Assembly (NCBI RefSeq): GCF_029869925.1
Contig: NZ_CP118605.1
Coordinates: 1,550,001 to 1,614,000, forward strand
DNA: 64,000 bases
Reading direction: 5' to 3'
Source: Microbulbifer bruguierae
Lineage (GTDB): Bacteria > Pseudomonadota > Gammaproteobacteria > Pseudomonadales > Cellvibrionaceae
Shown here piece by piece: positions 10,545-64,000 of this stretch. The stretch's first letter is position 1, and each line of letters starts with the position of its first letter. A model generated the notes under the pieces. It did not search any database. It was not told the DNA's origin and saw only the letters and a list, made by a program, of their open reading frames with translations. A program made the translations under genes and the position numbers.

Positions 10545-12011
10545 ATGAAGCAGTCACTCCAGTTAAAACTCGGCACTCAGCTGACGATGACGCCGCAGCT
10601 GCAACAGGCTATCCGCCTGCTGCAACTGTCGACCCTGGACCTGCAGCAGGAAATCCAGTCCGCACTGGACAGCAACCCGTTACTCGAAGCGGATTTTGAC
10701 GAGCACGCCGGCGAATCTCATCAGGAACAGAACACCCCCTCTCAGGAGGGAGCCCAGCGCGAAGACAGCGACGGCGCAGCTGACACAAAAAATGACGCCA
10801 GCGCTGACAGCGACTGGAATAGTGACATCCCTGACGACCTGCCGGTCGACACCCGCTGGGACGACATCTATACCAACAACAGCTACCAGGGCAACGAGGG
10901 CGAAGACTACGCCCTCGAGCAACGCAATGCCGCATCAGAAAGCCTGCAGGACAGCCTCCTCTGGCAACTCAACCTGACGCCGCTGACTGCCGAAGACAAG
11001 CACATTGGCGAAGCCCTGGTTGACGCTATCGCCCCTAACGGTTTTCTGGTTGCGGAGCTGGAAGAGATAGCCGTCGCAATTGGCGTGGATGTCGACGAAG
11101 TGCAGGCGGTACTGAAAACCATCCAGCAGTTTGAACCGGTGGGCTGTGGCGCCCGCGATCTGCGCGAGAGCCTGATGTTACAGCTGCGGCAACTGCCTGA
11201 GCAGACCCCCTGGCTGCCACAGGCGCTGATCGTAGTCGGCCAGCACCTGGACCTGCTGGGCAAGCGGGACTTCCGTCAGCTGAGCCGGCGCACCCGTCTC
11301 AGCGAAGCACAATTGGGCGAAGTCATGCGCCTGATTCAGACTCTCACCCCCTACCCCGGCGAAGCCTTTGGTGGCGAAGAGCCCCAGTACGTGGTTCCAG
11401 ACGTGATCGTGAGCCGCAAGCAACAGCGCTGGGTAGTGGAGCTGAACCCGGAAACCACCCCCAAACTGCGCATCAATGACGCCTATGCCTCCCTGATAAA
11501 GCGCGCAGACAACTCCACCGAAAACAACTACCTGCGCGATAACCTGCAGGAGGCGCGCTGGTTCCTGAAAAGCCTGCAGAGCCGGCACGAAACCCTGCTC
11601 AAGGTGGCAACCTGTATCGTCGAGAAACAACAGGGCTTTTTCGAACAGGGTCCGGAAGCCATGAAGCCGATGGTGCTGGCCAATATTGCCGAAACTATCG
11701 GCATGCACGAATCCACCATTTCCCGGGTAACCACCCAGAAGTACATGCTCACTCCCCGCGGGGTTTTCGAGCTCAAGTACTTCTTCTCCAGCCACGTGAG
11801 CACCGATTCTGGCGAGGATGCCTCGTCCACCGCCATCCGCGCCCTGATCCGCAAGCTCATTGACGGCGAGCAGCCGCGCAAGCCACTATCCGATAACAAG
11901 ATTACCCAGGAGCTAGACGCCCAGGGCATCAAGGTAGCCCGGCGCACCGTAGCCAAATATCGCGAGTCCATGGGAATCCCTTCGTCTAGCGAGCGCAAGC
12001 GACTGGTCTGA
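10545..12011 (+). CDS. rpoN: RNA polymerase sigma-54 factor
   Basis: A 488-residue sigma-54. Region I is the glutamine-rich [23 protein letters not shown] at the N terminus (split here by its leucines), which contacts activators. An acidic region II follows (about residues 60-120). The core-binding domain and helix-turn-helix follow, and the RpoN box ARRTVAKYR lies near residue 466, where it reads the -24 element. Sigma-54 needs AAA+ activators such as CbrB, encoded near the end of this window. Its neighbours hpf, ptsN, rapZ and ptsO form the classic rpoN cluster. The leader contains a sigma-54-type promoter. Confidence 0.97.
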
Positions 12012-30007: not shown

Positions 30008-30202
30008 AAACATCCTCAGGGAAACGGTTGCCGAGCTCGCAAGCCGGATCACAAACTTCCTGGCCGGCGCTCAAACAAAGTAAAAATAACAGCCCAAAAC
30101 AGGCTCGCGATGACAAAGGTAGCGCGATAGCCCATTCGCGGGAACTGCGCAGGTCCCAGAGGTTCTCGCCACTGTGAGCTTCTGCTACCATCGCGCCCGC
30201 AA
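30008..30202. other. Upstream region with a possible membrane-protein remnant
   Basis: On the minus strand, bases 30049-30192 read as a 47-codon open stretch ending in TGA: ...FPRMGYRATFVIASLFWAVI then [11 protein letters not shown]. It looks like the last helix and tail of a transporter, but it has no start, and no gene continues it upstream. It may be a remnant or chance. Promoters for the two divergent transcripts must also lie here. Confidence 0.25.
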
Positions 30203-30286
30203 ACCTAAGGGGTGGCGTACGCCTGAGATGCTGTTGCACAGCGAACCCTTGAACCTGATCCGGTTAATACCGGCGTAGGAATAGGT
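30203..30286 (+). ncRNA. TPP riboswitch (THI element)
   Basis: The conserved core is complete: AAGGGGTGGCG, CTGAGATG, ACCCTTGAACCTGATC, GGTTAATACCGGCGTAGGA. P1 is formed by ACCTA (30203-30207) with TAGGT (30282-30286). Downstream, AGTGTG/CACACT (30291-30296 with 30303-30308) is followed by CCCCCCTTTT, a possible terminator. TCTCTT (30335-30340) can pair with AAGAGA (30353-30358) and hide the ribosome site of the receptor gene. So thiamine pyrophosphate should switch off the following four genes, by termination, by blocking translation, or both. Confidence 0.97.
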
Positions 30287-30365
30287 ACCCAGTGTGGGTT
30301 CTCACACTCCCCCCTTTTCACGTCGCACACCGGGTCTCTTTCCTATCGGATGAAGAGAGAGAGCC

Positions 30366-58002: not shown

Positions 58003-58179
58003 ATGAGCAACCGTACCCTGTTAATCCTGCTGGTGCTTGTGGGCTATGTATTCAGCCCCACGGTATTCACCTGGATGATCAATCCCTCCGGCGCCTGGTA
58101 CCGGCCTTTTATCCTCTGGTTCGTCCTGATCCTGCTGGCGATCTTTATTCAGCGGAGGCGCAGTCCGGATGACCTTTGA
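58003..58179 (+). CDS. cbrX: CbrX-like 58-residue membrane protein
   Basis: An ATG at 58003 opens 58 codons: MSNRTLLILLVLVGYVFSPT, then VFTWMINPSGAWYRPFILWF, then VLILLAIFIQRRRSPDDL. Two hydrophobic helices are separated by a short loop, and the C terminus is basic. It ends in a TGA inside cbrA, overlapping it by 11 bases, so translation is coupled. Pseudomonas genomes have a small ORF, cbrX, in the same position and overlapping cbrA. Length, topology and context agree; sequence identity to cbrX has not been tested. Its role is unknown but it may control or assist CbrA production. Confidence 0.8.
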   Translation: MSNRTLLILLVLVGYVFSPTVFTWMINPSGAWYRPFILWFVLILLAIFIQRRRSPDDL

Positions 58180-61177
58180 GATTGCCCATATTGCGCTGAT
58201 CGGCGTCGCCTACATACTGGCGCTGTTTTTTGTCGCCTTCGCCACTTCCAAGGGTTGGCTGTCAAGCAAATGGGTACGCCATCCATTTTTTTATGTACTG
58301 TCGCTCGGAGTATCCCTGAGCGCCTGGACCTACTATGGGATCATCGATCTCGCATGGCAGCACGGCTACGGTGTGCTGGCCTATTACCTGGGCACCGGTG
58401 CCATGTTCCTGTTTGCGCCGGTCGCACTCGAGCCCCTCGCCCGCCTTGCCCAGCGCTACCAGCTCACATCCCCTGCAGACCTGCTGGTATTTCGCTACCA
58501 CAGCCGCGAGGCCGGCACCTTGGCAACCCTGTTTATGCTGCTGGGATTACTGCCACTAATCGCGTTGCAAATTCAGGCCGTAGCGGAGACGCTGGCACTG
58601 CTTTCCCGCGACAACGTCGCTGCGCTCGCACTACCGGAGAGCGGGGTTACCAGTAAAGACCTTATCGCGTTCTTTTACTGTGTGCTGCTGGCGCTGTTCA
58701 CCAGCACCTACGGTGCTACCAGTAAACGACAGGCAGGGCTTGCCAGCGCCATGGCTCTCGAATCCATGGTCAAACTGGTGGCGTTACTGGCTGTTGGCCT
58801 GTACTCCGTTTATGGCGTATTCGGTGGGATGGCTGGGCTCGACCAGTGGCTGTTGCAAAACAGTGACATGCAACAGTTGCTGTATTCACCGATTCGGCAG
58901 GGCTCATCCCACACCCTGCTGCTGGTGTTTATCGCCACCGCAGTGGCCATGCCCCACATTTTCTACCTGAGCATTGCCGAGCGCCCGGCTGCCCAGGGCT
59001 TGCGTACAGCAAGCTGGGGCTTTCCATTGTTTTTGCTGCTGATGGCGCTGCCAATCTTCCCGATCATGTGGGCGGGTTTTGCCCTGGATGTTACCGAGCC
59101 GGTGCAATACTTCACCCTGGCAGTACCCAGAGCCAGCGGCTCGGCACTACTCACCGTGCTGGCCTTTATCGGCGGACTTTCTGCGGCCACCGGCGCGCTA
59201 ATCATGATTACCCTGGCGCTCTCTACCATGGTCATGAATCACTGGCTGCTGCCCGGTACCCGCTGGCAATCCGACGACAATATGTACCGCCAATTGCTGT
59301 GGTTGCGCCGCGCTCTTGTGACCGCGCTGTTTCTCGCCGGCTTCGCGTTTTACCTGCTGCTGAACAACCGGCTGTCCCTGTCGGATCTCGCCATCATCGC
59401 GTTTATTGCCTCTCTTCAGTTCCTGCCCGGTATTTTTGCGGTGATTCACTGGCCCCGGGGCAACCGGCGCGGCTTTATTGGCGGGTTGCTGGCAGGCATG
59501 CTGATCTGGGCGGCAGGACTGCTGTTCCCGGCAATGGTGGGCAACAGTGGCATCGCCCTGCCCGGCGGCGATTTCCAGATTCCACTGGGCATGGAAATCT
59601 GGCCCCAGATCACCACCCTGTCTCTGTCGATGAATGTACTGCTGTTTGTATGCCTGTCGATTTTCACCTCGACATCCAGCCTGGAACGCTATGCTGCGGA
59701 CCTGTGTAGCGATGACTCCATCAGCCAGGCCCTGCGCCTGGAACTGGACGCCCAATCTGCCGCAGATTTCCGCCTGCGCCTGTCGGAAAGTCTCGGCGCC
59801 GCGACGGCCAGCCAGGAAGTGAGTCGCGCCCTGCGCCAGCTCAATCTGCCGGAAGACGAACGCAGGCCTTACGCGCTGCGGCAACTGAGGGACAAACTGG
59901 AAGCGAACCTGTCCGGTCTGCTGGGACGGGTGCTGGCGGGCCAGATCGTCGACCGCCACCTGCCCTTTGTGACCAGCGATCAGCCCGCCAACAAAGATAT
60001 CAACCTGATCGAAACCCGCCTCAGTCGCTACAAGAACCAGCTGACCGGGCTCGCGGCGGAACTCAACAACCTGCGCCTCTACCACCGACAGATGCTGGAA
60101 GAGCTGCCAATGGCCGCCTGCTCCCTGGGGCGCGATGGCGAATTGCTGCTGTGGAACTATGCCATGGCAGATCTCACCGGCATTGGCGCCAGTGAGGTAA
60201 TCGGCTCAAAACTGGAATACCTGCCAGAGCCCTGGCGCGGCCTGCTGACCGAGTTTGCCCACTCCGCCGACGGCAGTCGCTTCAAGCAACAGGTGGAAAT
60301 GGATGGCAACAGCCACTGGCTCAACCTGCACAAGACCCGCCTCAAGCAGCGCAGCGGCAAGAAATACGGCCGCGACCTTGTGCGGGACAACGGCAAAGAC
60401 AATCGCGGCGACGGTCAGATGCTGTTGGTGGAAGACATCACTGAAACCCAGATTCTGGAACAGGAATTGATGCACAGTGAGCGCCTGGCCTCCGTTGGGC
60501 GGCTCGCGGCAGGCGTGGCGCACGAAGTGGGCAACCCGGTTACCGGTATCGCCTGCCTGGCGCAAAACCTCCACTATGAATCCGACAATCCGGAAGTGCT
60601 GGATACGGCAGACCAGATTCTGAGCCAAACCCAGCGCATCAGTCGCATCGTGCACTCGCTGGTGAGTTTTTCCCACAGCGGCAGCCAGGACACCGAAAAA
60701 GCACCCGTAGACCTGCATGCCTGTGTAGAAGAAGCGATACAGCTGCTGTCACTTCAGCGCGACAAGACCCAGGTCACCTTTGCCAACCAGGTTCCAGGGG
60801 ACCTCTACGCGCTCGGTGACAACCAGCGTCTGATTCAGGTATTTATCAACCTGCTGAGCAACGCCCGCGACGCCAGTCCCGACGGGGGGCATATCCAGGC
60901 AGAAGGATATATCCGCAACGGTCTCGCCTGCGTGGCAGTCACGGATAACGGCCCCGGCATCTCAGCGGCGCACCGCGAGCGTATTCTTGAGCCCTTTTTT
61001 ACCACCAAGGAACCCGGCGAAGGCACTGGCCTTGGCCTGGCCATGGTGTACAGCATTGTGGAAGAGCACGGCGGGCAACTGGAGCTGGTCAGCCCGGCCC
61101 ATCCAGAAACGGGGCGCGGCGCACGCTTTATTGTGCAATTGCCACTGGAATCTCCACTGCCAAATTCCGGGCCATAA
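58169..61177 (+). CDS. cbrA: Sensor histidine kinase CbrA with SLC5 transporter domain
   Basis: A 1002-residue hybrid of transporter and kinase. Residues 1-500 form a sodium/solute symporter (SLC5) domain with about 13 helices; a STAC-type linker follows, then a PAS domain (about 640-750), a HisKA domain with His785 in AAGVAHEVGNPVTGI, and a HATPase with NLLSNARDASPDGG, DNGPGIS and GEGTGLGLAMVYS. In Pseudomonas CbrA couples histidine transport and carbon/nitrogen status to phosphorylation of CbrB. AGCGGAGGC precedes the ATG within cbrX. cbrB follows after 140 bases. Confidence 0.95.
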   Translation: MTFEIAHIALIGVAYILALFFVAFATSKGWLSSKWVRHPFFYVLSLGVSLSAWTYYGIIDLAWQHGYGVLAYYLGTGAMFLFAPVALEPLARLAQRYQLTSPADLLVFRYHSREAGTLATLFMLLGLLPLIALQIQAVAETLALLSRDNVAALALPESGVTSKDLIAFFYCVLLALFTSTYGATSKRQAGLASAMALESMVKLVALLAVGLYSVYGVFGGMAGLDQWLLQNSDMQQLLYSPIRQGSSHTLLLVFIATAVAMPHIFYLSIAERPAAQGLRTASWGFPLFLLLMALPIFPIMWAGFALDVTEPVQYFTLAVPRASGSALLTVLAFIGGLSAATGALIMITLALSTMVMNHWLLPGTRWQSDDNMYRQLLWLRRALVTALFLAGFAFYLLLNNRLSLSDLAIIAFIASLQFLPGIFAVIHWPRGNRRGFIGGLLAGMLIWAAGLLFPAMVGNSGIALPGGDFQIPLGMEIWPQITTLSLSMNVLLFVCLSIFTSTSSLERYAADLCSDDSISQALRLELDAQSAADFRLRLSESLGAATASQEVSRALRQLNLPEDERRPYALRQLRDKLEANLSGLLGRVLAGQIVDRHLPFVTSDQPANKDINLIETRLSRYKNQLTGLAAELNNLRLYHRQMLEELPMAACSLGRDGELLLWNYAMADLTGIGASEVIGSKLEYLPEPWRGLLTEFAHSADGSRFKQQVEMDGNSHWLNLHKTRLKQRSGKKYGRDLVRDNGKDNRGDGQMLLVEDITETQILEQELMHSERLASVGRLAAGVAHEVGNPVTGIACLAQNLHYESDNPEVLDTADQILSQTQRISRIVHSLVSFSHSGSQDTEKAPVDLHACVEEAIQLLSLQRDKTQVTFANQVPGDLYALGDNQRLIQVFINLLSNARDASPDGGHIQAEGYIRNGLACVAVTDNGPGISAAHRERILEPFFTTKEPGEGTGLGLAMVYSIVEEHGGQLELVSPAHPETGRGARFIVQLPLESPLPNSGP

Positions 61178-61317: not shown

Positions 61318-62712
61318 ATGAGCCACATCCTGATCGTAGAAGATGAAGCCATTATCCGCACTGCGCTTCGCAAGCTGCTGGAGAGGCATCGCTACAAGGT
61401 CAGTGAAGCTGGCTCCGTGCGCGAGGCGACCACCAAGTACCGTCTGGCCGACATGGATCTGATCATTTCAGACCTGCGCTTGCCCGGCGCTCCGGGCACC
61501 GACCTGCTGAAACTGGCGGGCGATGTGCCTGTACTGATCATGACCAGTTATGCCAGCCTGCGCTCCGCGGTGGACTCCATGCGTATGGGCGCCGCAGATT
61601 ACATCGCCAAACCCTTCGACCACGACGAAATGCTGGCCACCGTGCGCCGGGTCATCGGCAAGGCGGAACAGCACCGGGCCGCCGGTGCCGCAGCGGCAGC
61701 CAACAAAAGCGGGGGCCGCGCCATCGCCGGTATGATCGGCGACAGCCCGGTGATGCGTGACCTCTACTCCCGCATCCACAAAGTGGCACCCACCGACGCT
61801 ACGGTACTGGTACACGGCGAAACGGGTACCGGTAAAGAATTGGTGGCACGCGCCATCCACGAAGAAAGCCAGCGCACCGGCAAACCTCTGATATCCGTCA
61901 ACTGCGCGGCGATTCCGGAAACTCTGATCGAAGCCGAACTGTTCGGCCACGAAAAAGGCGCCTTCACCGGCGCCCAGACCGCCCGTGAAGGACTGGTCGC
62001 CGCCGCGGACGGCGGCACCCTGTTCCTCGACGAGATTGGTGAGCTACCCCTGGAAGCCCAGGCCCGGTTGCTGAGGGTGCTACAGGAAGGTGAGGTCCGC
62101 CCTATCGGCGCCATTGAATCCCGCAAGGTCAACGTGCGCCTGGTCGCTGCAACACACCGAAACCTCCGCCAGCTGGCGGCGGAGCGCAAGTTCCGGGAAG
62201 ACCTTTACTACCGTATCAACGTGGTACAGATGAGCCTCCCGCCACTGCGGGAGCGTGGTAAAGATGTCCTTGCGATCGCCGAGGCCTTACTGGAAAAGTT
62301 CTGCGCCAAGATCAACCGCCCAACCTTGAAGTTGTCTCCGGAAGCTATCCAGGCTGTTACCACCTACACTTGGCCCGGTAACGTGCGCGAGCTGGAGAAC
62401 GCCATCCAGCGCGCGGTGATCCTGACTGAAGATAGTGCCGAGATCGATCACCACACCCTCGACATTGACCTGGACCTGGTACCCATCGACGAAGCGGACC
62501 CGGAGCGCCGTCCCCGAGCCAGCCTGCATGAAGACCCCCGGGAGGACCTCTCTCTGGAAGACTACTTCGCCCGTTTTGTACTCGAGCATCAGGAAACCAT
62601 GAGCGAAACCGAGCTGGCCAAGAAGCTGGGGGTAAGCCGCAAATGCCTGTGGGAGCGCCGACAGAAACTCGGTATCCCGCGTAAAAAGGCCAAGCGTGTC
62701 GTCGAAGCCTGA
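61318..62712 (+). CDS. cbrB: NtrC-family response regulator CbrB
   Basis: A 464-residue sigma-54 activator. The receiver domain has the phospho-acceptor Asp52 in LIISDLRLPG. The AAA+ domain carries Walker A GETGTGKE (near 167), the sigma-54-contacting loop KGAFTGAQT (near 213), Walker B GGTLFLDEIGELPL, and arginine-finger region YRINVVQMSLPPLRERGKD (shortened here). A Fis-type helix-turn-helix ends it (ETELAKKLGVSRKCLWERRQ). It should work with RpoN on promoters such as the one at 63014. A strong terminator follows. Confidence 0.95.
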   Translation: MSHILIVEDEAIIRTALRKLLERHRYKVSEAGSVREATTKYRLADMDLIISDLRLPGAPGTDLLKLAGDVPVLIMTSYASLRSAVDSMRMGAADYIAKPFDHDEMLATVRRVIGKAEQHRAAGAAAAANKSGGRAIAGMIGDSPVMRDLYSRIHKVAPTDATVLVHGETGTGKELVARAIHEESQRTGKPLISVNCAAIPETLIEAELFGHEKGAFTGAQTAREGLVAAADGGTLFLDEIGELPLEAQARLLRVLQEGEVRPIGAIESRKVNVRLVAATHRNLRQLAAERKFREDLYYRINVVQMSLPPLRERGKDVLAIAEALLEKFCAKINRPTLKLSPEAIQAVTTYTWPGNVRELENAIQRAVILTEDSAEIDHHTLDIDLDLVPIDEADPERRPRASLHEDPREDLSLEDYFARFVLEHQETMSETELAKKLGVSRKCLWERRQKLGIPRKKAKRVVEA

Positions 62713-62832: not shown

Positions 62833-62936
62833 TGTTACCTGCCGCTACCGAGGGAACAGCGGAGAACGGAAATTGGTAACAAGTGAAAGTGTTACCCCCT
62901 CTCACACCCGAGTAACAACCACCTCACCATGCGTAA
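62833..62936 (+). promoter_or_regulatory. Candidate CbrB upstream activating sites
   Basis: Five half-sites of the type TGTTAC/GTAAC lie here: TGTTACC (62833-62839), GGTAACA (62875-62881), TGTTACC (62890-62896), GTAACA (62912-62917) and GTAAC (62932-62936). The second and third form a perfect dyad with an 8-base spacer; the third and fourth form TGTTAC-N16-GTAACA. They lie about 100-205 bases before the predicted RNA start, the usual range for an NtrC-type activator. Sites of this TGTTAC/GTAACA kind are known for CbrB at crcZ in Pseudomonas. Confidence 0.75.
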
Positions 62937-63011
62937 CGGAAAACTGTATTTTCGTGGCGGAAAAAAGTTCCTTAAAATCTTAACTTATTGATTTATAAGG
63001 ATTTTATAAAG

Positions 63012-63030
63012 TTGGCACGCTATCTGCTTT
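63012..63030 (+). promoter_or_regulatory. Sigma-54 promoter of the CrcZ-like RNA
   Basis: TTGGCACG-CTAT-CTGCTTT: GG at 63014-63015 and GC at 63026-63027, near-perfect to TTGGCACG-N4-TTGCW. Transcription should start near 63039. It is flanked by very AT-rich DNA upstream (62975-63010), suited to bending. Confidence 0.9.
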
Positions 63031-63038
63031 AACTAGCT

Positions 63039-63420
63039 CAAACAACGATAACAGCCAAGAATAAAAATAAATGACTGTTTAAGCCCTAATAACAACTGAC
63101 AATAAGTGGGCGTGAAACAATAAGAATAATGATGGGAAGATCGACAATAAAAGCCAAAGTGATCGATTCCGGAGCAAATTCGAACAATAAAAATAATAAG
63201 GTTCGAAATAACAATAAAAATAAACAAAAAGTAATAACAAACAACAATAAAAATAAACAATAAGAATAAAGCGCTATAACAAAAACAATAATTTTTTGTA
63301 GAAGACAACAAAAATAACGACAAGTACGTGACAAACTGACTGATTGTGCCTGGGAGAGGGTTTGCTGAAAAGCAAATTGATAGCGCAAGGAAGCCGCTGC
63401 CTTCATCGAATAACAATAAC
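63039..63420 (+). ncRNA. crcZ: CrcZ-like Hfq/Crc-sequestering small RNA
   Basis: After the sigma-54 promoter comes about 380 bases without a gene but crowded with A-rich motifs of the AAnAAnAA kind, such as AACAATAA, AATAACAATAAAAATAAACA and GACAACAAAAATAACGACAA. I count at least nine runs, near 63061, 63089, 63115, 63145, 63183, 63206-63269, 63278, 63305 and 63409. In Pseudomonas, CrcZ lies between cbrB and pcnB, is made from a CbrB/RpoN promoter, and titrates Hfq-Crc through such motifs to lift catabolite repression. Position, promoter and motif content all match; length is close to the 407 nt of P. aeruginosa CrcZ. The 3' end is a guess: a TTTGCT-GAAA-AGCAAA hairpin at 63361-63376 lacks a T-run. 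Confidence 0.85.
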
Positions 63421-63618
63421 TCCCTTCTTTTCCGTGTCTGATGATGCACACATGTTTGCTGGGCCCCGCAGGAAGCGGGACCGGCAGCTGTGCATTGCGC
63501 TGTGTGTGTTAGAATCCGCCCACAATAGTCCGGAACAGCGCCATACCAGCGCCAATTTCCCGGAGTAACCGTACAGCCGCCCATCGACGAACGGGCCGCG
63601 GATAACACAGTAAGGCGT
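63421..63618. other. Leader region before pcnB
   Basis: About 200 bases. A hairpin GGCCCCGC-AGGAA-GCGGGACC (63462-63482, one mismatch) could end the small RNA or belong to the pcnB leader. TTAGAAT at 63508-63514 is a weak -10. The CrcZ-like transcript may read into pcnB. Confidence 0.4.
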
Positions 63619-64000
63619 ATGTTCAATTCCCTGATCAGCAGCATCAAACGCTGGCACAGTAAATCGAAAACCACCGAAGACACCCCCAAATCCGATAAAG
63701 CCCGCGCAAGCAAGGCCGAACGCGGCCAGAGTAAACCAGTGCGCAAGCGCGCTTCCTCGAGCAAACAACCCCAACGCCCCGAAACCACTCGGGTCGTCGT
63801 CCCCCGCAGCGACCACACTCTCTCCCGCCGGGATATCAGCCGCGCCGCGTTGACGGTAATGAAGCGCCTGCAGGAAGCCGGTTTCGAGGCATTTATCGTC
63901 GGCGGCAGTGTCCGCGACCTGCTGCTGGGAGGCCACCCGAAGGACTTCGATGTCGCCACTGATGCCACACCGGAACAGGCCAAACAACTGTTTCGCGGCG
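63619..64000 (+). CDS. pcnB: Poly(A) polymerase I, N-terminal part
   Basis: An open frame from ATG 63619 to the window edge, 127 codons. After a basic, Ser/Lys-rich tail (residues 5-60) the class II nucleotidyltransferase domain begins: [20 protein letters not shown], then [20 protein letters not shown], the GGxxRD and DFD motifs of PcnB. The enzyme adds 3' A-tails to RNA and so marks it for decay. Position after cbrB and crcZ matches Pseudomonas. The C-terminal part is outside. Confidence 0.95.

Follow-up and report, generated by a model that had tools for sequence, protein, structure and literature searches.

A predicted CrcZ-type RNA gene between cbrB and pcnB outside Pseudomonas

Downstream of cbrB in Microbulbifer bruguierae we find a tract that, with a probability of about 0.86, encodes a CrcZ orthologue operating through the whole Hfq/Crc-titration mechanism. 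We describe the DNA elements of this locus and their spacing, its conservation, its partner genes and the part of the RNA structure that related genomes document. From these we infer that the tract is transcribed, that its RNA binds Hfq and Crc, and that it affects target mRNAs. When preferred carbon runs short, CbrA would signal to CbrB, which would bind the sites F1-R1-R2; IHF probably bends the DNA, and the sigma-54 polymerase would start at about 63039. The resulting CrcZ-type RNA would pull Hfq and Crc away from the start regions of catabolic mRNAs, and carbon catabolite repression would thereby be relieved. The RNA is predicted to need CbrB and RpoN for its expression when carbon sources are poor, and to bind, together with Crc, to the distal face of Hfq. 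A CrcZ-type RNA outside Pseudomonas had been proposed in an earlier reading of the letters alone (the sequence-only reading), and gene order, promoter anatomy, conserved partner genes and wide conservation support that proposal.

The locus between cbrB and pcnB

The window, by which we mean the whole stretch of 64,000 nucleotides that was analysed, carries cbrA, cbrB and pcnB at its end, all on the plus strand (Table 1). A 906-base intergenic region separates cbrB from pcnB. Directly downstream of cbrB, in the position of CrcZ, lies the non-coding A-rich tract that had been noticed between the two genes. A single plus-strand frame of at least 60 aa overlaps 63057-63420; it starts with TTG and extends from 63344 to 63568. 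The gene at 63619 we take to be pcnB from its position, from general recall and from matches of its start in relatives. The Cellvibrionales-type character attributed to the window agrees with its host, as NCBI places Microbulbifer in the Cellvibrionales, family Microbulbiferaceae.

CbrA of the window is 49-51 % identical to the listed Pseudomonas-type proteins (family f20) and 82-92 % identical to its counterparts in six other genomes of the same genus. CbrB shares 63 % identity with that of P. putida, the C-terminal DNA-binding part being nearly identical and SRKCLWERRQ identical, and 94 % with M. agarilyticus CbrB. A frame of 58 codons overlaps the start of cbrA; its length and its offset (-165 to +11 relative to cbrA) are identical to those at the P. 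putida locus L138. The Cellvibrio locus L132 has a comparable frame, but this one stops before cbrA. The 58-codon frame fits cbrX, which a passage of PMC8871633 describes as a small frame overlapping the start of CbrA. The gene order cbrX-cbrA-cbrB-tract-pcnB is that of P. putida L138.

Table 1 Features of the cbrA-pcnB locus, in window coordinates
Feature	Position	Strand	Remarks
cbrX-like small frame	58003..58179	+	58 codons; overlaps cbrA start
cbrA, SLC5-type sensor kinase	58169..61177	+	1002 aa
cbrB, sigma-54-dependent response regulator	61318..62712	+	464 aa
CbrB-type activator site F1-R1-R2	62890..62937	+	TGTTAC-N16-GTAACA-N15-GTAAC
IHF-like site	62981..62993	-	32 bp upstream of the -24 element
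sigma-54 promoter, -24/-12	63013..63028	+	TGGCACGCTATCTGCT; 1 mismatch to TGGCAC-N5-TTGCW
CrcZ-type RNA, predicted start and candidate extent	63039..63420	+	
Hairpin 1, A-block in loop	63050..63079	+	both-side changes in 3/5 pairs
Hairpin 2, A-block in loop	63083..63111	+	pairs invariant
Hairpin 3, A-rich loop	63139..63164	+	both-side changes in 1/4 pairs; 3 invariant
Hairpin 4, A-block in loop	63179..63207	+	both-side changes in 4/7 pairs
Nearly invariant structured 3' domain with ACTGANT	~63330..63405	+	
TAGAAT, candidate -10 of pcnB's own promoter	63510..63515	+	kept in eight aligned Microbulbifer rows
pcnB (poly(A) polymerase), start only	63619..63999	+	runs off the window

Promoter and activator sites

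The sigma-54 promoter was rightly called near-perfect, since TGGCACGCTATCTGCT departs from the consensus at a single position. Taken alone, such an element proves little because matches of this kind are not rare in the window: with at most two mismatches there are 39, against 43.4 expected in shuffles. It is significant through its context, not by itself. From its position, transcription is predicted to start near 63039. A simple scan returned no sigma-70 promoter.

Upstream of this element stands a CbrB-type activator site that is unique in the window and in the 4.48-Mb genome, with no match in the reversed control. A passage of PMC8871633 gives the CbrB consensus as TGTTAC-N12-14-GTAACA-N15-19-GTAACA, and one of PMC6296734 allows 12-16 between the subsites and describes IHF as located between the CbrB and sigma-54 sites; the first spacer here, at 16, lies beyond the former range and inside the latter. 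The distance between F1 and the -24 element is 123 bp both here and at P. putida L138, and it is 123 or 124 bp in 34 of 40 Pseudomonas-group promoters. The F1-R1-R2 sites and the sigma-54 promoter are thus both present, at the Pseudomonas distance. The inner spacers, 16 and 15 here, are 14 and 16 at that P. putida locus.

Both P. putida L138 and P. otitidis L142 share the offset of the IHF-like site, which was matched with the usual IHF consensus. Because the match is patchy among promoters (17/58 in the order sample, 10/40 in the Pseudomonas group and 6/21 at other named loci; for the samples see below), this site is weaker evidence.

In a comparison across promoters that omitted most Pseudomonas loci, these being counted in the set of 40 promoters, the F1-to--24 distances group around 103, 112, 123, 133 and 143 bp. 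Such values approximate whole helical turns. When 28 family-classes, drawn from 59 of 84 promoters, were tested, equally good periodicity arose in 42 of 5000 random sets, and we regard helical phasing of the activator-promoter distance as suggestive only.

An array of A-rich motifs

The motif AAnAAnAA occurs 60 times in the window, against 17.6 expected (the largest of 100 shuffles held 40). Of these matches, 31 fall in 63057-63420, every one on the plus strand and none on the minus strand. The same interval contains 11 blocks of at least two AAN units followed by AA, the Hfq motifs expected of a CrcZ; "at least nine" such runs had been claimed. The cbrB-stop-to-conserved-pcnB region has a G+C content of 46 %, as would suit A-blocks that are no more than functionless AT-rich spacer. 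Shuffling of that same region, however, leaves 1.8 motifs instead of 31. The spacer explanation is already contradicted by these motif counts, by the strand asymmetry of 31 to 0 inside the tract and by the conservation and covariation of the tract described below, and we give it next to no credence.

Block counts were made over the 138 regions that have a sigma-54 element and at least three blocks, a set that holds some genomes twice (e.g. L052/L130, L054/L131 and L085/L176). They range from 5 to 7 in 40 Pseudomonas-type regions, from 5 to 14 in eight Microbulbifer regions and from 3 to 21 in 90 others. This copy has about twice the Pseudomonas block number, and a passage of PMC4063720 likewise counts six A-rich stretches in the 407-nt CrcZ of P. 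aeruginosa against the 11 blocks here. The impression that the array is denser than in Pseudomonas thus stands for this copy, but does not extend to Microbulbifer generally, judging from the range of its eight regions.

RNA structure and 3' end

Of 48 Microbulbifer genomes, 47 match the stretch 62880-63420; the one that does not is 80 % complete. DNA similarity gave one match in our own genome and hence no second CrcZ copy. We aligned 20 of 30 Microbulbifer loci, the most similar ones, and found that 8 of 20 proposed pairs had changed on both sides, against 3.2 in shuffles, none of 500 being as high. The both-side changes of hairpin 1 all come from one of the 20 sequences; in hairpin 4, 73.4 % of cells are paired. 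When the partner was slid by 1-3 columns, pairing fell from 89.5 % to 24-44 %, a comparison that favours the proposed structure because this structure was read from the window's own sequence. Further pair types showed no excess over shuffles (354/500). As the covariation term of the RNAalifold consensus is small (-0.56 kcal/mol), we rely on the counted pairs; single-strand folding was non-decisive (z = -1.79).

Inside the invariant 3' domain, TGGGAGAGGGTTTGCT at 63351-63366 fits the GG-N10-GC frame of sigma-54 promoters and is followed by an A-block. This element probably belongs to the RNA structure.

The 3' end bears on an alternative in which the tract serves chiefly as an extended 5' leader of pcnB; transcription driven by CbrB would then continue into pcnB, and Hfq on the A-blocks would act in cis. 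In favour of this alternative, a canonical terminator is absent in 28 of the 29 Microbulbifer loci (out of 30) in which the scan anchor is present, the remaining one equalling the 1/29 of shuffled controls, and each of the eight aligned Microbulbifer regions has pcnB next. By a simple scan, one terminator-like site was found, on the minus strand only. In the order sample, however, a strong terminator closes the tract in four of the five remaining genera of the Cellvibrio family (L050, L051, L053 and L054, e.g. ACGGGAAAGC..GCTTTCCCGT-TTT; L052 is without one). Moreover, the TAGAAT element is conserved close upstream of pcnB, with a TAGAAT-type match in 24 of 29 Microbulbifer loci, and in G031, from an Endozoicomonas-type family, a similar element (L002) lies on another contig than cbrA. 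We consider the leader explanation improbable and retain the reading as a CrcZ RNA gene. A stricter terminator script was positive in only 23 of 40 Pseudomonas-type regions.

Comparison with known RNAs

The Rfam CrcZ model (RF01675) scored 18.3 bits on the tract, in fragments, and thus fell below its gathering threshold of 95; a search of our own genome with it gave no match at E <= 0.001. Among 38 relatives, one passed the threshold and 12 matched at E <= 0.001. We rejected the model as the deciding test: with 1/38 relatives passing, it looks too narrow to be decisive.

A low Rfam match would also be expected of an Hfq RNA sponge that arose independently beside cbrB and merely resembles CrcZ. 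This origin is very unlikely, given that the place of the tract, the activator-promoter distance and the neighbouring cbrX are all as in Pseudomonas and that most sampled families have the tract. The ACTGANT core speaks against it as well: 39 of the 40 Pseudomonas-type regions have it, as do all eight from Microbulbifer, although only 33 of 90 others do (10.8 expected).

As a probable orthologue of CrcZ, the element shares with its Pseudomonas counterpart the cbrB-pcnB position, the CbrB-type sites with a sigma-54 promoter at equal distance, the repeated A-rich Hfq motifs and the ACTGANT core, and differs in its activator inner spacers, the lack of a canonical terminator and the sub-threshold Rfam score. 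CrcY and CrcX of Pseudomonas and Azotobacter are presented in a passage of PMC8871633 as CbrB-activated RNAs that bind Hfq-Crc. Unlike these, the Microbulbifer element is, by DNA similarity, single-copy in its genome; Dasania (L177) and Bacterioplanes (L176) apparently carry two copies in tandem at the cbrB locus. The sRNA99 of Acinetobacter baumannii was likened by its authors to CrcZ for its A-rich motifs and its behaviour on Hfq; it has three motifs, and the passage concerned states no link to CbrAB (PMC12802169).

Partner proteins and possible targets

Without hfq the CrcZ reading would fall; the genome has one hfq. Its product keeps Y25, G29, I30, K31 and Q33, which we take to be the distal-face residues. 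Y25 is named as such in a passage of PMC4063720. A single rpoN is present in the genome and lies inside the window, with its DNA-binding domain at 11526-12002.

A crc gene, which the sequence-only reading had advised looking for in the same genome, is present. The Crc orthologue (255 aa, L013:1381-2148) adjoins pyrE in divergent orientation and scores 259.2 bits to P. aeruginosa Crc (4jg3) but no more than 28.8 to the exonuclease III of E. coli (1ako). The genome encodes an exonuclease III separately. The Crc orthologue has QD, GNWG and SSH in place of the catalytic residues of active enzymes, at what are presumably the catalytic positions. NCBIfam, which gave no specific name to CbrA, CbrB or Crc, labels it exodeoxyribonuclease III (TIGR00633). 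At the contact positions listed in a passage of PMC6422490, the protein keeps R138, K139, R140 and R141, as befits a Crc, and carries the changes E142->D, K155->R, M156->A, E193->R, R196->K, R229->K and R230->N. According to the same passage, P. aeruginosa Crc is inactive as R140E, and repression is abolished by E193R and restored by R230E. Since E193 and R230 are coupled there, the pairing of R at position 193 with N at position 230 may, by analogy, be compensatory.

Crc matches at E <= 1e-60 occur in 53 of 58 relatives. At E <= 1e-30, matches are also found in 11 of 15 genomes beyond the order, which are without the RNA beside cbrB; the Crc partner is thus non-diagnostic for the switch because Crc-like proteins occur without the RNA.

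With respect to possible targets, AAnAAnAA is found at -35 to +3 of 37 among 626 predicted genes in sense direction, compared to 4 antisense and 14.8 in shuffles. Control stretches gave 11/622 (25 bases long) and 10/621 further upstream and 6/634 inside genes. The count was made over the window together with 800 kb of the genome, and gene starts were called by a simple script. The enrichment is compatible with an Hfq-Crc regulon and may reflect ordinary A-rich ribosome sites.

Distribution in the order and beyond

CbrA is found (E <= 1e-100) in 212 of 293 genomes from the order in the GTDB sense, representing 90 of 118 genera. The order sample comprises 80 downstream regions, mostly one per genus, from these 212 genomes. 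It was drawn from the listed better cbrA matches, down to about E = 1e-241, with weaker-match genomes outside the sample. Including the window, 78 of 81 regions were counted, as L073, L081 and L099 end at contig ends. The search for an A-rich RNA between cbrB and pcnB across relatives, suggested earlier, proved productive: a strand-specific A-rich tract is present in 73 of 78 regions and in 26 of 28 families, within a sample biased to better cbrA matches. A sigma-54 element precedes a block in 67 of the 78 regions, 49 of which have CbrB-type sites too; reverse-strand controls of the tract tests gave 2 and 1 of 78. L094 was scored negative by its ratio (9 motifs to 3) despite having promoter and motifs. 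The in-order family f35 (L288, G058), fetched later, is without the tract and shows no pcnB match in the stretch.

A second set consisted of named loci, the best 80 of 596, of which 73 were counted; L163, L170, L186, L193, L194, L197 and L200 were too short or ran off. Tract and promoter are present in 70/73, and the sites as well in 61/73. The Pseudomonas group accounts for 40 of the 73, and outside of it tract and promoter are found in 30 of 33. Named genera with the locus include Microbulbifer, Cellvibrio, Gilvimarinus, Marinobacter, Motiliproteus and Amphritea, and further named holders are Spongiibacter, Zhongshania, Dasania, Bacterioplanes, Pseudohongiella and OM182. The three misses in this set are two Endozoicomonas and one Parendozoicomonas.

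In a sample of the class, cbrA occurs in 20 of 185 genomes, 17 of them beyond the order. Sixteen of these 17 were fetched, and 15 regions were readable, L293 being without a readable cbrB; L280 has only 736 readable bases. None of the 15 readable regions contains the A-rich tract, though cbrA and cbrB are present, and L280-L292 and L294-L296, a series that includes the in-order L288, show no pcnB match within the stretch fetched. As these cbrA-cbrB regions are without the tract, CbrAB seems older than the RNA, whose origin probably lies at the base of the order or close to it.

Published passages draw a narrower picture. CbrAB is called exclusive to Pseudomonadaceae in passages of PMC8871633 and PMC6296734, and the former, a 2022 review, describes the order cbrA-cbrB-crcZ only in Pseudomonas and Azotobacter. 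A passage of PMC7918813 has symporter-type sensor kinases widespread among bacteria, with CbrA/CbrB named only for the same two genera. Measured against the passages of PMC8871633 and PMC6296734, the earlier suggestion that the switch is older and wider than reported is supported, and the CbrAB-CrcZ switch most likely predates the Pseudomonadaceae. In the open-licence literature we found no paper on CrcZ in Marinobacter or Oceanospirillales, on CbrA/CbrB in Cellvibrio or on Crc-Hfq carbon catabolite repression in Halomonas, earlier reports elsewhere being possible; broader searches there gave nothing on the point among the matches listed.

We offer a fuller history tentatively, with the odds rather against it. 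The switch would be ancestral to the broad order in the GTDB sense, CbrAB being older and the RNA having been added once beside pcnB. Motif number and tandem copies would then have tuned titration, with spacing kept near helical turns, and the terminator would have disappeared in Microbulbifer, where transcription driven by CbrB may consequently raise poly(A) polymerase as well. The recurrence of the locus, with its sigma-54 promoter and its array of Hfq motifs, in the genera named above would make carbon repression by Hfq-Crc titration a general trait of a large, mostly marine bacterial group, many of whose members are polysaccharide degraders. The natural series of motif number (3-21 blocks) and copy number would allow a test of how titration strength is set.

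Further observations

All five loci of family f43 (L071, L090, L092, L095 and L102) have A-blocks, and the script found no sigma-54 element preceding them. The sequences of L071, L090 and L102 do show GTTAC/GTAAC elements together with a TTGCA resembling a -12 element, but no GG at -24. G103, of the same family, gave no Crc match at E <= 1e-30. At L055 (G040, family f17), pcnB closely follows cbrA-cbrB without a tract, and a search of this genome for Crc was negative at E <= 1e-30; RNA and Crc partner are missing together.

Viewing of the sequences showed two to three sigma-54 elements each in L176 and L177, followed by A-blocks between cbrB and pcnB; such multiple units are apparent tandem crcZ copies. 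By script only, multiple promoters were also listed for L056, L058, L063, L070, L083, L086, L096 and L097. This list is too long, since in the window the script takes the element at 63351 for a second promoter. A cbrAB-crcZ locus of Pseudomonas type is found in L143, whose record bears the title Pantoea sp. Ap-967; the source is probably a Pseudomonas under a wrong label. Elsewhere in the window, a TPP riboswitch is located at 30198-30298 (76.7 bits).
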